From Brevibacillus sp. DP1.3A (GTDB lineage: Bacteria > Bacillota > Bacilli > Brevibacillales > Brevibacillaceae): 64,000 bases of DNA. The position numbers were made by a program, and so were the translations under genes. How positions within the stretch are numbered: position 1 is the stretch's first letter; the number at the start of each line of letters is the position of its first letter. Of this stretch, positions 6,844 through 44,960 are shown piece by piece. The stretch covers positions 2,587,001 through 2,651,000 of the forward strand of contig NZ_CP085876.1 of assembly GCF_013284245.2 (NCBI RefSeq). Direction: 5' to 3'. Under the pieces are notes generated by a model, which worked only from the letters and a program-made list of their open reading frames with translations, ran no database searches and had not been told where the DNA came from.

Positions 6844-6861
6844 TCTACATGACGAATGGAA

Positions 6862-7557
<696 letters not shown>

Positions 7558-7578
7558 AAATAAAATAACTCCTCTTTA

Positions 7579-7668
7579 AAAACGATCCCGTGAGGTCGGC
7601 AAGAGGCAAGAAACTTCCCATGAGCATGGCGAAGCTAGCCTCTTTGTGTCCGCACAAAGAGGCTTTTT
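7579..7668 (+). promoter_or_regulatory. PyrR attenuator 2 (pyrR–pyrP)
   Basis: The binding-loop sequence ACGATCCCGTGAGGTCGG with following CAAGAGG lies at about 7581–7606. The terminator stem GCCTCTTTGTG / CACAAAGAGGC followed by five T is at 7638–7668. The loop keeps the GTGAGG…CGGCAAG core. Confidence 0.92.
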
Positions 7669-7719
7669 GTATAAAAGAAGCTTTTTGAATGAAAGAAACA
7701 AAACAGGGGGCATACAGTC

Positions 7720-18831: not shown

Positions 18832-19021
18832 TGCACACTCCGTTAATAAACTTAATCATTTAAACCAAAGTATATGAGTTCTTCCTTATTTTTGCAAGTC
18901 ATAAAAACGTTGATAGATCAGCAATAAAAGAAGAGGAAGCGAGAATCGCCAGATGCAATAGGAAAGAAAAGTAGGGAATAGTAAGGGAGGTTACAAAAAA
19001 AGTAAAGGTAGGTGCTTGTGT

Positions 19022-20242
19022 ATGAATAAAGGAACGGGGAGCCTGGGCTCTCTTATGAAAACAGGGAAGGTTAAGAAAATCATCGGTGCAGCTTTTTTGT
19101 CTGCCACACTCATGTTTTCCCTTCCTCATACAGGACTGGCTGTGGGCAAAGGTGCTCATGGGCCAGATATTTATGTGATTCAGGGAATGTTGAAATCATT
19201 AGGTAGTTACTCGGGTCAAATCAATGGATACTATGATGATGTTACCGTACGTGGTGTGAAGCATTTTCAGAAAAAACACGGGTTGCCTGTTACAGGAAAT
19301 GTAGATAATCGTACGTTCCAAAACATTGTTTATTCTTATGATAGTATCAAATCTGGCAAACGCGGCCAAGGAGACGGCAAAGGTCACGGTGGCGGAGCGG
19401 GCCAAGGAGGCGGCAAAGGTCACGGTGGCGGAGCGGGCCAAGGAGGCGGTAAAGGTCACGGTGGCGGAGCAGGCCATGAAGGCGGTAAAGGTCACGGTGG
19501 CGGAGCGAGCCAAGGAGGCGGTAAAGGTCACGGCGGCGGAGCAGGCCAAGGCGGAGGCATGGGCGGCGGAGCAGGTCAAGGTGGAGGCATGGGCGGCGGA
19601 GCAGGTCAAGGTGGAGGTATGGGCGGCGGAGCAGGTCAAGGCGGAGGTATGGGCGGCGGAGCAGGTCAAGGTGGAGGTATGGGCGGCGGAGCAGGTCAAG
19701 GTGGAGGCATGGGCGGCGGAGCAGGTCAAGGTGGAGGTATGGGCGGCGGAGCAGGCCAAGGCAAAGGCTACGGCGGTGGAACTGGCCAAGGTAAAGGCTA
19801 TGGCGGCGGAACAGGCGAAGGTCAAGGCCAAGGTAAAGGCTACGGCGGCGGAACAGGCGAAGGCAAAGGAAAAGGCTACGGCGGTGGAACTGGCCAAGGT
19901 CAAGGTCAAGGTAAAGGCTATGGCGGCGGAACAGGTGAAGGCAAAGGAAAAGGTTACGGCGGCGGAACAGGTGAAGGCCAAGGTAAAGGCCAAGGTAAAG
20001 GCAACGGTGGCGGAACAGGTGAGGGCCAAGGTAAAGGCCAAGGTAAAGGCAACGGTAACGGCGGTGGAACCAGCAACGGCGGTGGAAAAGGCAACGGTGG
20101 TGGAAAAGGCAACGGTGGTGGTAACGGCAACGGTGGCGGCAATGGCAATGGCAATGGAGGTGGAACCGGAACCGGCAACGGTAACGGCAACGGTAAGAAC
20201 AATGAGAACAATGAGGACAACAAAGGTACTGGAAAAGACTAA
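19022..20242 (+). CDS. Exported peptidoglycan-binding protein with long glycine-rich repeat tail
   Basis: A 406-residue protein in three parts: a signal peptide (IIGAAFLSATLMFSLPHTGLA, split around 24–43 from the ATG); one PG_binding_1 domain (DIYVIQGMLKSLGSYSG…DNRTFQNIVY); and about 280 residues of Gly/Gln/Lys repeats. The tail goes from a 12-residue unit GGGKGHGGGAGQ to a 10-residue unit GGGMGGGAGQ, then GKGYGGGTG(Q/E) units, ending in Asn/Gly. ATG 19022 is preceded by AGGTAGGTG. It is probably anchored to the wall or spore surface; repeat number is likely to vary between strains. Function unknown. Confidence 0.78.
   Translation: MNKGTGSLGSLMKTGKVKKIIGAAFLSATLMFSLPHTGLAVGKGAHGPDIYVIQGMLKSLGSYSGQINGYYDDVTVRGVKHFQKKHGLPVTGNVDNRTFQNIVYSYDSIKSGKRGQGDGKGHGGGAGQGGGKGHGGGAGQGGGKGHGGGAGHEGGKGHGGGASQGGGKGHGGGAGQGGGMGGGAGQGGGMGGGAGQGGGMGGGAGQGGGMGGGAGQGGGMGGGAGQGGGMGGGAGQGGGMGGGAGQGKGYGGGTGQGKGYGGGTGEGQGQGKGYGGGTGEGKGKGYGGGTGQGQGQGKGYGGGTGEGKGKGYGGGTGEGQGKGQGKGNGGGTGEGQGKGQGKGNGNGGGTSNGGGKGNGGGKGNGGGNGNGGGNGNGNGGGTGTGNGNGNGKNNENNEDNKGTGKD
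19365..20190 (+). repeat. Tandem coding repeats (36-bp then 30-bp units)
   Basis: 36-bp units containing GGCAAAGGTCACGGTGGCGG recur about five times from 19376. They give way to near-identical 30-bp units containing GGTGGAGGCATGGGCGGCGG, about seven copies to 19750, and then mixed GGC/AAA/TAC units. The third-position differences (GGT/GGC, CAT/TAT) suggest recent expansion by slippage or recombination. Confidence 0.85.
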
Positions 20243-28636: not shown

Positions 28637-28904
28637 GTCAGAGCCTCTCCTCGTTTGTCGGCAACAGCTGGACGAATATTTTTCCGGCAAGAGACAGTCC
28701 TTTTCTGTTCCCCTGTGGATGAAAGGGAGAGGCTTTCAGAAACAGTCTTGCACACATTGACCACCTATAGGAGCAAACGGAAGTTTAACAGGCTATTCGG
28801 GTGGCTTGTGGCGAAAGGAATGGTTACTGACCCACGAGCAATGTTCGCAAAATAAGGGGAAATAAGGTAAAATCTGAGGGTGGTAGTAATAAATGACAAT
28901 TTCA

Positions 28905-29131
28905 TAGGTGGAAACAGGTTCCTTAGGGCGTAACCAATTCGCCACAAGGATAATAGGGAAGCTCGGTGCAAATCCGACACGGTCCCGCCACTGTAAGAGG
29001 GGAGTCAGCGTCCAACAAGCCACTGGTCTATCAAAATAGACGGGGAAGGCGACGCTAGACGATGAACCCATAGTCAGGAGACCTGCCTGTTTCGACAACA
29101 CTGATAGACCTACGGGAGATAGGGAGGTGTT
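28905..29131 (+). promoter_or_regulatory. Cobalamin (AdoCbl/B12) riboswitch
   Basis: The conserved core is present: AGGGAAGCTCGGTGCAAATC, then CACGGTCCCGCCACTGTAA, and the B12 box GTCAGGAGACCTGCCTG at about 29073–29089. The closing P1 stem is GAAACAGG (28911–28918) with CCTGTTTC (29086–29093). Beyond it, AACAC (29097–29101) can pair with GTGTT (29127–29131) and mask the GGGAGGTG ribosome site of the next gene. That suggests translational control and no intrinsic terminator is seen. No cobalamin-synthesis or transport gene follows; the regulated unit is two small genes. Confidence 0.92.
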
Positions 29132-29135
29132 AGAG

Positions 29136-29267
29136 ATGGCTTGCGAAAAACAGCGAGTGGACAAGTACGTCCCTCCTTTTCTGGCATTTTCTAACGATCG
29201 TCACGGTCGAGTGGAAAATGCTCTTTTTATTTTGGGCAGGATAAAAGAAGAGGAGGGTGTGCGATGA
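29136..29267 (+). CDS. 43-residue protein under the cobalamin riboswitch
   Basis: The ATG follows GGGAGGTG at good spacing, immediately downstream of the riboswitch. The product begins MACEKQRVDKYVPPFLAFS, continues with a hydrophobic ALFILG stretch and ends EEEGVR. It has no signal peptide or recognisable domain. Its stop overlaps the next start (ATGA), so the two are translationally coupled. Real translation is supported by ribosome site, position and coupling rather than by homology. Confidence 0.6.
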   Translation: MACEKQRVDKYVPPFLAFSNDRHGRVENALFILGRIKEEEGVR

Positions 29268-29398
29268 TGCAACTTTTTATTTGCCAATGGTGCGGATATG
29301 TCGAGGAAAAAGAGCTGCCTGAGGAATGCCAGGAGGGCGTGTTTCATTGCACTTGCTGTAGTATGGAAGAGGTAGAAAGCCTGTTCACCCACAACTGA
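29264..29398 (+). CDS. 44-residue zinc-ribbon-like protein under the cobalamin riboswitch
   Basis: It starts MMQLFICQWCGYVEE, has an isolated cysteine in PEECQEG, and ends with HCTCCSMEEVESLF. The CxxC (C7, C10) and CxCC (about C31–C34) pairs could hold one zinc or another metal. AGGAGGG lies seven bases ahead. It is translationally coupled to the 43-residue gene. No terminator follows before the SAM riboswitch promoter. The function is unknown; a role in cobalt/B12 or methionine metabolism is suggested only by the riboswitches around it. Confidence 0.65.
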   Translation: MMQLFICQWCGYVEEKELPEECQEGVFHCTCCSMEEVESLFTHN

Positions 29399-29444: not shown

Positions 29445-29473
29445 TTGACGCTTGCCTTGGAATTTCTTAGAAT
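29445..29473 (+). promoter_or_regulatory. Probable sigma-A promoter for the SAM-riboswitch/hom transcript
   Basis: TTGACG at 29445–29450 and TAGAAT at 29468–29473 are spaced by 17 bp, directly upstream of the first SAM-I aptamer. Confidence 0.75.
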
Positions 29474-29495
29474 AAAGCTCAACAGCATAAATGGT

Positions 29496-29654
29496 TCTTA
29501 TCCAGAGAGGTGGAGGGTCTGGCCCGATGAAGCCCGGCAACCGTTGCATAATGCGACAAGGTGCCAATTCCTGCGAGACGTTTCGTCTCGAAAGATAAGA
29601 AGCGGGTTACTCCATTAGTAGATGAACCTTCTTCTTAGCGAAGAAGGTTTTTTT
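29496..29654 (+). promoter_or_regulatory. SAM-I (S-box) riboswitch 1 with terminator
   Basis: The aptamer runs from CTTATCCAGAGAGGTGGAGG to AAAGATAAG (about 29496–29600) and contains the S-box core CTGGCCCGATGAAGCCCGGC followed by AACC and AAGGTGCCAATTCCTGC. A terminator follows at 29625–29654: AACCTTCTTC with GAAGAAGGTT and a run of T. In this family SAM binding favours termination. Confidence 0.95.
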
Positions 29655-29668
29655 CAATTTCATATTTT

Positions 29669-29834
29669 CTTTATCCAGAGAGGTGGAGGGACTGGCCCGA
29701 TGAAGCCCGGCAACCGTCACGCATATTTTGTGACAAGGTGCCAATTCCTGCAGGACATATACGTCCTGGGAGATAAGGAGGGGGAGCATTATTAGCTGCT
29801 AACAAGCCTTCTTCTTATCGAAGATGGCTTTTCT
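29669..29834 (+). promoter_or_regulatory. SAM-I (S-box) riboswitch 2 with terminator
   Basis: A second complete S-box element: CTTTATCCAGAGAGGTGGAG, CTGGCCCGATGAAGCCCGGC, AAGGTGCCAATTCCTGC and closing GAGATAAG. The terminator at 29805–29834 is AGCCTTCTTC with GAAGATGGCTTTTC. It starts only 15 bases after the first terminator and lies 35 bases before hom. The variable P3/P4 region (GTCACGCATATTTTGTGAC) differs from copy 1, so this is not a simple recent duplication. Confidence 0.95.
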
Positions 29835-29868
29835 TTTTATCTAAAATTCGGGGTATGGGGTGGTCAGG

Positions 29869-31134
29869 ATGAGTGCAGAAGTGGTACGCGTGGGATTATT
29901 GGGATTGGGAACAGTGGGTGGAGGCGTAATCAAAACGATCCGTTCGCAGCAGGAGAAGCTGGCTTCTCGTCTGGGTAAACGAATTGAGATCGTCAAGGCA
30001 TTGGTGCGTGACTCGGAAAAAGAGCGGGCGGTTCATATCGACCCGGCTTTACTGACAACAGACTTTGAGGATGTATTGAGCAGTAATGTGGATATAGTGG
30101 TGGAGGTCATGGGTGGTGTAGAACCTACCTATGACTACGTCCGTGCTTTGATCGAAAAGGGCTGCCATGTGGTAACTGCCAACAAAGAGCTCCTGGCGAA
30201 AAAAGGAACGGAGCTAGTCGATTTGGCAAATCAACATCAAGTGCATCTTGCCTATGAAGCGAGTGTGGCAGGGGGCATCCCGATCTTGAGCGTGCTCCGG
30301 CAGTTCCTACGCACGAACGATATTCAAGGCGTTCGCGGTATTCTTAACGGAACAACGAACTTCATTTTGACGAAAATGGAGGCAGAGCAGCTCTCCTACC
30401 AGGAGGTTCTCAAGCAAGCGCAGGAGCTGGGCTATGCGGAAGCAGACCCTCGTTCGGATGTGGAAGGCTTTGATGCTATGTACAAGTTGTATATCTTGGC
30501 ACAGCTTGTGTACGGAGAATCGCTGCCCTTAGCAGATGTTGTTCGCAAAGGAATTGCAGATTTGTCAGCAGGTCACATTCGGATTGCGAGCGAGCTCGGG
30601 TACCGGATCAAGCTGATCGCGCAGGCCTATCAAGCTGAGAAAGGAATTCGCCTATCTGTTGAACCAACCATGCTTCCGCTGAGCCATCCGTTGGCGCAAA
30701 TCCACGACGCGTTTAATGCTGTCCAGCTATCCGGCAACATCGTAGGAGACTTGTTGTTTACAGGAAGAGGGGCAGGAGAGCTCCCCACAGCAAGTGCAGT
30801 CGTGGAGGATTTGGCCTATTTATTGACACAACCATTCACACCGCATCCTACTTGGAAAGAAAAAACGGCTGACAAAGCTGGAGTCACGGTGGACTCGGTA
30901 GAACACGTCCTATGTTATCTTGAGGGCTCGTGTCATACTGCTACGCCAGATCGTGTCTTGCATTTCCTTCAGCAGGCAGGAGTCAACGTGCATAAACTAA
31001 AAGTCCAATTCGACTTGGGAGGCGTCTTGCGCGCAGGTTTGATCGTGACAGGAATCAGCGAAGAGCACGAGTCCCTATTGAAAAATGATTTTGGCTTAGA
31101 AGTGCGCTGCTTCCCTATTATCGAATCTGCGTAA
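29869..31134 (+). CDS. hom: Homoserine dehydrogenase
   Basis: It reduces aspartate semialdehyde to homoserine, the branch point to methionine and threonine. The 421-residue protein has the nucleotide-binding VRVGLLGLGTVGGGV near the N-terminus, the catalytic ELGYAEADPRSDVEGFDAMYK region, and a C-terminal ACT-like domain (about 345–421). ATG 29869 lies six bases from GGGGTGG; GTG 29860 is in frame. The double SAM-I leader ties its expression to methionine supply. thrC/thrB do not follow in this window. Confidence 0.94.
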   Translation: MSAEVVRVGLLGLGTVGGGVIKTIRSQQEKLASRLGKRIEIVKALVRDSEKERAVHIDPALLTTDFEDVLSSNVDIVVEVMGGVEPTYDYVRALIEKGCHVVTANKELLAKKGTELVDLANQHQVHLAYEASVAGGIPILSVLRQFLRTNDIQGVRGILNGTTNFILTKMEAEQLSYQEVLKQAQELGYAEADPRSDVEGFDAMYKLYILAQLVYGESLPLADVVRKGIADLSAGHIRIASELGYRIKLIAQAYQAEKGIRLSVEPTMLPLSHPLAQIHDAFNAVQLSGNIVGDLLFTGRGAGELPTASAVVEDLAYLLTQPFTPHPTWKEKTADKAGVTVDSVEHVLCYLEGSCHTATPDRVLHFLQQAGVNVHKLKVQFDLGGVLRAGLIVTGISEEHESLLKNDFGLEVRCFPIIESA

Positions 31135-44754: not shown

Positions 44755-44960
44755 GATATCAAGATCCTGCGATGTACGATAGGCCGTAAATGTTTCTAAC
44801 CTTATACGTGTTTTTCGGGAGACGGAAACTGTGATGGATGTCAGGCCCACCTCCTTTTTGGATGCATGGGAAGGCTGAAGTGCAGAAGGGTCGCCCACCT
44901 GTGTGAGCGCAGGTTATAGAAACATGAGGTCAACGGCAGAGCGGGGACTTGGCCGTTTAT
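44755..44960 (+). ncRNA. ssrS: Probable 6S RNA
   Basis: No protein fits here, but a long rod-like RNA does. A promoter (TTGAGC at 44723, TAAAGT at 44746, 17-bp spacer) precedes it. The outer stem CAAG-A-TCC pairs with GGACTTG (44760/44945); GCCGT (44783) pairs with ACGGC (44933); ATGTTTCTA-AACCT (44790–44802) pairs with AGGTT-A-TAGAAACAT (44911–44925), with unpaired stretches between, as in 6S RNA. The 5' start AAGATCCTGCGATGTACG resembles the known 6S 5' consensus as I recall it. Size (about 200 nt) fits. A different structured RNA cannot be ruled out. Confidence 0.6.

Follow-up and report, generated by a model that had tools for sequence, protein, structure and literature searches.

Genes controlled by cobalamin (B12) riboswitches have been grouped, in the accessible part of PMC3766115, into four groups: those for the synthesis of B12, for its uptake, for the uptake of cobalt, and for isozymes of enzymes that depend on B12. 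A row of one cobalamin and two SAM riboswitches (cobalamin-SAM-SAM) makes up 9% of the tandem cases of hom1 in Bacillota reported in the main text of PMC12452182 (Microb Genom 2025), a text in which Brevibacillus is not named. In the accessible part of PMC11260477, a translated upstream frame with an AUGA overlap is described for ppe2, which lies behind a B12 switch in Mycobacterium tuberculosis. The locus described here resembles both of the latter arrangements and lies in a stretch of 64,000 nucleotides from Brevibacillus sp. DP1.3A (contig NZ_CP085876.1), referred to throughout as the window. It was interpreted, with moderate confidence, as a transcription-terminating cobalamin riboswitch followed by one gene (ORF2), forming part of a B12-repressed module around metE that also includes a hot-dog thioesterase.

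The coordinates of all features of the locus are collected in Table 1. A covariance-model scan placed the aptamer in the cobalamin riboswitch family RF00174 with 115.2 bits (gathering score 31.5; E 3.7e-28), the match covering model positions 1-189 of 189. The complete B12 riboswitch claimed in a preliminary description of this DNA was thus confirmed, its start being moved from position 28905 to 28899, six bases earlier. The promoter-like site upstream of the aptamer is likely to be the start of the riboswitch transcript; two sites of this kind were found in the region against 1.4 expected in shuffles, which lends it weak support, and its -10 stretch GGTAAAATCT is still present in genomes G002 and G014, from which the aptamer has been deleted. 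B12 riboswitches are present in all 26 genomes of the genus, and the one in the window is ordinary.

Several other elements were recorded in the window and its relatives. A decayed 6-O-methylguanine-DNA methyltransferase (ogt) gene, recognised by eye at 28641-28862, shares 53% identity over 117 residues with an open frame in G013, and open ogt copies lie just 5' of the riboswitch or of ORF2 in G003, G010, G013 and G023. A 6S RNA was detected at 44761-44951 (70.3 bits) and two PyrR binding-site leaders at 6858-6979 and 7569-7671, before frames that resemble pyrimidine-synthesis genes by eye. The predicted 408-residue protein encoded at 19016-20242 has a start of peptidoglycan-binding appearance (by eye) and a long Gly-rich repeat.

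Table 1. Features of the riboswitch-ORF2 locus and its downstream neighbours (window coordinates).
Feature	Position	Strand	Basis
Promoter-like site TTCGCA-18-TAAAAT	28844..28873	+	9/12 consensus matches
Cobalamin riboswitch aptamer	28899..29104	+	RF00174, 115.2 bits
Antiterminator 5' arm (GGGAGGTGTTAGAGA), previously taken as the ribosome site of ORF1	29122..29136	+	RNA fold
Antiterminator 3' arm, overlapping the terminator	29178..29192	+	RNA fold
Intrinsic terminator, stem-loop 29183-29222 with T-rich tail to 29233	29183..29233	+	-18.2 kcal/mol
ORF1, 43-codon open frame from ATG 29136, best read as non-coding expression platform	29136..29267	+	Frame loss in relatives
ORF2 ribosome binding site GAGGAGG, 3' of the terminator	29250..29256	+	Sequence
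ORF2, 44 codons, zinc-ribbon-like protein	29264..29398	+	Conservation in the genus
Promoter-like site TTGACG-17-TAGAAT, between ORF2 and the SAM riboswitches	29445..29473	+	10/12 matches, consensus match only
Two SAM riboswitches in a row	29495-29601, 29668-29779	+	103.3, 97.6 bits
Homoserine dehydrogenase gene (hom), named by eye	29860-31134	+	3' of the SAM riboswitches

Fold prediction for the stretch between the aptamer and ORF2 yielded two mutually exclusive structures. One is the terminator GGCATTTTCTAACGATCGTCACGGTCGAGTGGAAAATGC-TCTTTTTATTTT, with a predicted energy of -18.2 kcal/mol; in the other, positions 29122-29136 (GGGAGGTGTTAGAGA) pair with 29178-29192, which consumes the 5' arm of the terminator and, at -27.4 kcal/mol for a 74-base stretch, excludes it. 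An exclusive terminator and antiterminator in this position mark the element, by fold prediction, as a transcription-terminating OFF switch. Because of this pairing, what appears to be the ribosome site of ORF1 is read as an arm of the antiterminator, and the earlier suggestion that the leader can mask that site agrees with the predicted fold, which pairs it away. The hairpin 29183-29222 was absent from a simple terminator scan of the region, because its stem is bulged and the scan requires one unbroken stem. A pair-count test was carried out on eight rows of one length type, the shorter hairpins, leaving out the longer G000-type hairpins; 95.2% of the cells were paired, as against at most 49% when the pairing was slid. 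Two pairs had changed on both sides in these rows, a covariation signal above all slides and not above column shuffles (102 of 500). A terminator of like kind was found in all 15 metE leaders examined, which share with the antiterminator region of the window the block ACCTACGG(G/A)AGAT(A/G)GGG together with GGGAGGTGTTAG and all of which are without ORF1, the nearest ATG opening 2 codons in 14 of them and 11 codons in G008. With a platform of the same plan preceding the thioesterase gene in G008, counterparts of the terminator occur in ORF2, metE and thioesterase leaders.

The status of ORF1 was evaluated in the ten genomes in which riboswitch and platform are intact. The frame reaches ORF2 in five of these (G000, G004, G005, G015 and G019), overlapping it as ATGA in all of the five except G015; it is shifted by two bases in G006, where a TTG could restart the old frame, and is missing in G003, G016, G021 and G023. 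Variable sites in six close genomes are distributed over codon positions 1/2/3 as 4/9/6 and follow no codon pattern, compared with 8/3/14 for ORF2 (six genomes); the contrast gave a Fisher p of 0.027 for third versus second positions and of 0.135 for third versus all other positions. The pN/pS of ORF1, based on few changes, is 0.36 (five genomes), close to the 0.33 of ORF2 (eight genomes). Its sequence is conserved in 7 of the 26 genomes, all of one close clade (E at most 1.3e-18). It has no match among the Pfam and NCBIfam families, and 17% of random sequences with its composition would be expected to contain an open frame of 42 codons. ORF1 was rejected as a gene on account of its frame loss, the lack of a codon pattern and of a family match, and the occurrence of the same platform before metE without it, and is most likely, as far as comparison of sequences can tell, the riboswitch's own on/off hairpin. 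In the preliminary description the locus had been presented as two overlapping small genes under one riboswitch, with stop codons or frameshifts at sites of conserved riboswitch named as the sign against it. The two frames (43 and 44 codons) and their ATGA overlap in the window are real, and every one of the 15 genomes with ORF2 has it as an open frame; the two-gene unit did not survive, as five of the ten genomes keeping riboswitch and platform have lost the ORF1 frame, so that of the proposed pair ORF2 is kept with the riboswitch and ORF1, a region of predicted terminator and antiterminator, is not.

Single-sequence and profile searches identified ORF2 in 15 of the 26 genomes of the genus, the former at E 2.8e-11 or better in 14 and at 1.5e-5 in G007, the latter at 1.1e-19 or better in all 15 with a profile built from the same 15 rows. 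The proteins of the 14 other genomes are 39-98% identical to that of the window and are 43-44 residues long, except for longer forms in G008 and G016. Nine residues are invariant in the 15 rows (C7, W9, C10, G11, Y12, E14, C29, C31 and C32), five of them cysteines, giving the pattern C7-x-W-C10-G-Y...C29-x-C31-C32. A collection of 84,980 species, which may omit records of the window's own genome, yielded seven ORF2 loci, all from Brevibacillus. In the class, 398 genomes were searched, 25 of them of the genus, with the best 15 first-look candidates scored in most genomes; the 373 genomes outside the genus contained no credible relative, and the weak matches in 15 of them (E 0.0046-0.048, none full length) were taken as chance. 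Judged by its sequence conservation, ORF2 is a real gene and the sole gene of the riboswitch unit, and its family is, in these searches, limited to one genus. The unit has been disrupted in several relatives: upstream of hom in G014 (L166) it is deleted as a whole, leaving stumps of promoter and aptamer; in G002 and G010 ORF2 is cut off from the aptamer with the terminator kept, and is probably silent; and G013 has an intact ORF2 with neither aptamer nor terminator. In G003 and G023 a second B12 riboswitch lies directly 3' of ORF2 and leads into a NikA/Opp-like ABC transporter operon (L084:4579-10787 and L085:4694-10900), of which the substrate protein and permease were checked in G003 and the last frame is methyltransferase-like by eye; this operon is a candidate importer of cobalt or corrinoids.

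Single scans of four ORF2 proteins against Pfam and NCBIfam gave no match above cut-off, the best family match of the window protein being the rubrerythrin rubredoxin-like domain PF21349 with 18.8 bits, below its gathering score of 26.5. In a scan of all 15 rows the best match was Zn_ribbon_RPB9 (E 0.0006, three rows), and a search of solved structures by sequence returned nothing usable (best E 0.69). The AlphaFold model of ORF2 (pLDDT 72.8) contains two short strands around the first knuckle; with this model the best Foldseek match had an E of 1.6, and VIA-align returned generic zinc ribbons (best Z 3.5) and LysW chains at Z 2.8-3.0. LysW is an amino-group carrier whose C-terminal EDWxE tail carries the substrate. 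The C-terminus of the window protein is VESLFTHN, an EDWxE-type ending is missing from every row of the alignment, and the identification of ORF2 as a LysW carrier was dropped. Because the Cys pattern is invariant, the family matches, weak as they are, fall on rubredoxin-like and zinc-ribbon domains and the fold matches are generic zinc ribbons, ORF2 is likely to bind zinc, a prediction based on the Cys pattern and a model of medium confidence. A literature search, largely confined to openly accessible main texts, retrieved nothing on the ORF2 protein, which is thus a small protein family undescribed in the literature searched. The undescribed B12-responsive unit proposed earlier is upheld for this one Cys-rich, zinc-ribbon-like protein and not for two proteins.

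The occurrence of ORF2 was compared with that of metE across the 26 genomes. A search with the whole MetE protein found the gene at full length in 13 genomes and interrupted by one frame change in G023 (C10:74855-77145; a real break or an assembly error), remains of it in G013 (residues 4-30 and 29-192), G022 (639-763) and G007 (730-764), and no match in nine; PF08267 alone matches 15 of the 26. The remnant in G022, C-terminal and 63% identical over its length (G022:C2:415413-415787), is situated directly upstream of the thioesterase gene. ORF2 is present in 13 of the 14 genomes with a complete or near-complete metE, in two of the three with remains and in none of the nine without a match (Fisher p, with relatedness ignored: 1.8e-5 when every trace of metE is counted, 1.7e-4 when complete and near-complete genes alone are, and 2.1e-5 for a PF08267 match). 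The sole genome with a whole metE and no ORF2, G014, carries the deletion scar with riboswitch scraps. A tree of the 26 genomes based on carB shows ORF2 together with metE or its remains in three separate places, namely the main clade, G008 and G007, and the respective sisters of the last two, G009 and G018, have neither; inside the main clade both are missing from G020, and G022 has the metE remains alone.

Gene order connects the two more directly. The order is riboswitch-metE-ORF2 in G008 and, in G007, truncated riboswitch (49 bits)-metE scraps-thioesterase-ORF2. The five ORF2 aptamers compared, out of ten intact ones, form one group (support 80/89), and in the identity lists the nearest relatives of ORF2 aptamers are those of metE and the thioesterase. 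In 12 of the 15 genomes that match PF08267, metE is followed by the hot-dog (4HBT) thioesterase gene (as at L185:8577-9188 and L088:5310-5792), which in G008 sits elsewhere behind its own B12 riboswitch (G008:C1:503926-504790) and therefore looks like another B12-repressed gene; its product might free CoA when methylmalonyl-CoA mutase is without B12. The gene orders in G008 and G007, the placement of the thioesterase and the aptamer grouping therefore suggest a module of metE, thioesterase and ORF2 under B12 control, the members of which appear to have spread with copies of one riboswitch type. The preliminary remark that no transport, synthesis or isozyme gene follows is accurate directly at the window but overlooks the isozyme link seen in relatives, in which metE is the operon partner of ORF2 (G008) or persists as remains upstream of it (G007).

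Two other candidates for an ORF2 partner were tried and rejected. A close copy of the thioesterase (at least 75% identity), found in 15 of the 26 genomes, is absent from G002 and G013, which have ORF2, and present in G014 and G022, which do not. The class-Ib ribonucleotide reductase operon is also located behind a B12 riboswitch in G000; the family of its beta subunit, PF00268, used as a control, occurs in 26 of 26 genomes, does not track ORF2 and hence forms no joint pattern with it.

According to the proposed mechanism, binding of coenzyme B12 would allow the terminator 29183-29233 to form, and RNA polymerase would stop before ORF2; when B12 is absent, the antiterminator (29122-29136 with 29178-29192) would form instead and ORF2 would be made along with MetE. 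This ON/OFF direction is inferred from the fold and by analogy with known class-I switches. ORF2, whose gene follows metE in some lineages and in others is solitary and preceded by a riboswitch of the metE type, would be an accessory protein produced together with MetE under B12 shortage. MetE needs a zinc ion for catalysis, and the E. coli enzyme is sensitive to oxidation, which is the reason for considering a zinc-supplying or thiol-guarding role for a small zinc ribbon; our guess is that ORF2 assists MetE during B12 shortage, either as a source or buffer of its catalytic zinc or as a protector of its thiols. The tie of ORF2 to metE is, from its genomic distribution, clear, though not exclusive. 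ORF2 looks dispensable, having been deleted in G014 and cut off in G002 and G010, all three of which have metE; it is intact where metE is broken (G013 and G007), and G022 retains metE remains without it. No small frame with two CxxC motifs was found within 700 bases 3' of metE at any of 28 loci outside the genus or at either of 2 inside it, in a scan of the best 30 metE loci of the class that does recover ORF2 in G008. ORF2 is for these reasons regarded as accessory at most, with a role that may be wider and concern metal or redox balance under B12 shortage.

Two accounts of the role of ORF2 were accordingly compared. That it is a dedicated MetE partner, a mini zinc ribbon loading or buffering zinc or guarding thiols and switched on at B12 shortage, is a tentative proposal that we hold to be rather doubtful; if true, it would provide an accessory protein for an enzyme that does without one in most bacteria. 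A part in general metal or redox balance at B12 or cobalt shortage, the link to metE reflecting shared regulation only, is plausible, although short of probable: it would accommodate the intact ORF2 of G013 and G007 beside broken metE, its absence from G022 despite the metE remains, and its position in G003 and G023 between a B12 riboswitch and the riboswitch-led transporter operon, but not so readily the failure to find ORF2 in the nine genomes without a metE match, given that all 26 have B12 riboswitches. It seems extremely improbable that the two frames arose by chance and that the riboswitch is a decaying orphan, its gene having been lost. The aptamer has indeed been lost in G002, G010 and G013 and the whole unit in G014, yet ORF2 retains its nine invariant residues at 39-98% identity in 14 other genomes, evolves in eight close genomes with a pN/pS of 0.33 and belongs to a metE operon elsewhere.

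The remaining alternatives concern the extent of the regulated unit. The cobalamin switch could be the first of a cobalamin-SAM-SAM row that jointly controls homoserine dehydrogenase, the stretch between the switches being leader RNA. The accessible text of PMC12452182 reads this row before hom1 in Bacillota as joint control, counting riboswitches as contiguous if they lie in one shared intergenic region; 8 of the 26 genomes retain the order cobalamin-ORF2-SAM-SAM-hom, and from the end of ORF2 as far as the hairpin that follows the first SAM riboswitch no terminator-like site is listed on the + strand, which makes read-through into hom possible. However, the cobalamin and SAM switches do not share one intergenic region here, as the conserved ORF2 gene with its codon-like changes lies between them, and the promoter-like site 29445-29473 that separates ORF2 from the SAM riboswitches is likely to be a separate promoter of hom. 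Moreover, the riboswitch-ORF2 unit is 12-14 kb from hom in G003 and G023, ORF2 belongs to the metE operon in G008, and SAM-SAM-hom remains in G014 without the unit; the SAM-SAM pair before homoserine dehydrogenase is kept in five checked genomes without ORF2 at the site (G001, G007, G014, G018 and G020). Joint control was judged unlikely, and the SAM riboswitches and hom are neighbours of the riboswitch-ORF2 unit rather than parts of it. A still less probable reading has ORF1 translated as an upstream frame and governing ORF2 through translational coupling at the ATGA, as in ppe2 of M. tuberculosis; this precedent, published in PMC11260477 (accessible part), is the reason why ORF1 was tested rather than dismissed. 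A good ribosome-site match followed by ATG, the ATGA overlap in four genomes and the sequence conservation in the close clade with a pN/pS of 0.36 speak for it. Against these stand the frame shift in G006 and the absence of the frame from G016, G021, G023 and G003, the 4/9/6 distribution over codon positions, the ribosome site that ORF2 has of its own and the antiterminator role of the apparent ORF1 site, which is also found before metE without any ORF1. The reading preferred here therefore remains the terminating riboswitch with ORF2 as its one gene.

If this reading is correct, ORF2 fits none of the four groups of the B12 riboswitch regulon given in the accessible part of PMC3766115, and it suggests a protein need that may arise on the change to MetE. 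It would also correct the cobalamin-SAM-SAM "hom1 control" row as presented in the main text of PMC12452182, which contains an overlooked gene, at least in Brevibacillus. As a more general point, a small gene can be mimicked by an expression platform whose antiterminator resembles a ribosome site.

The closest known system is the B12-riboswitch-controlled metE (OFF switch), which has the same aptamer family and a closely similar platform in the same genomes and whose operon ORF2 can share; ORF2 differs in being a 44-residue Cys protein and not an enzyme, and is usually alone under its own copy of the switch. Among small rubredoxin-like and zinc-ribbon proteins (PF21349, LysW, desulforedoxin), to which its matches are weak, ORF2 resembles the others in the CxxCG knuckle, the second Cys group and the hairpin of its model, but has CxCC as its second knuckle, scores below the PF21349 cut-off and, unlike LysW, is without the acidic carrier tail. 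The M. tuberculosis metE and ppe2 B12 switches, as described in the accessible part of PMC11260477, also have a small leader frame, that of ppe2 having in addition a ribosome site and overlapping the next frame by AUGA, as in ORF1 and ORF2; those switches act on translation, whereas the small frame of the window overlaps a predicted intrinsic terminator, is not conserved and is followed by a frame that is itself tiny. Finally, the cobalamin-SAM-SAM row before hom1 (PMC12452182, main text) has the same riboswitch order and the same downstream gene, and its cases and the window are probably the same kind of locus; in Brevibacillus, however, the stretch from the cobalamin switch to SAM-SAM-hom contains a conserved gene as well as a promoter-like site.
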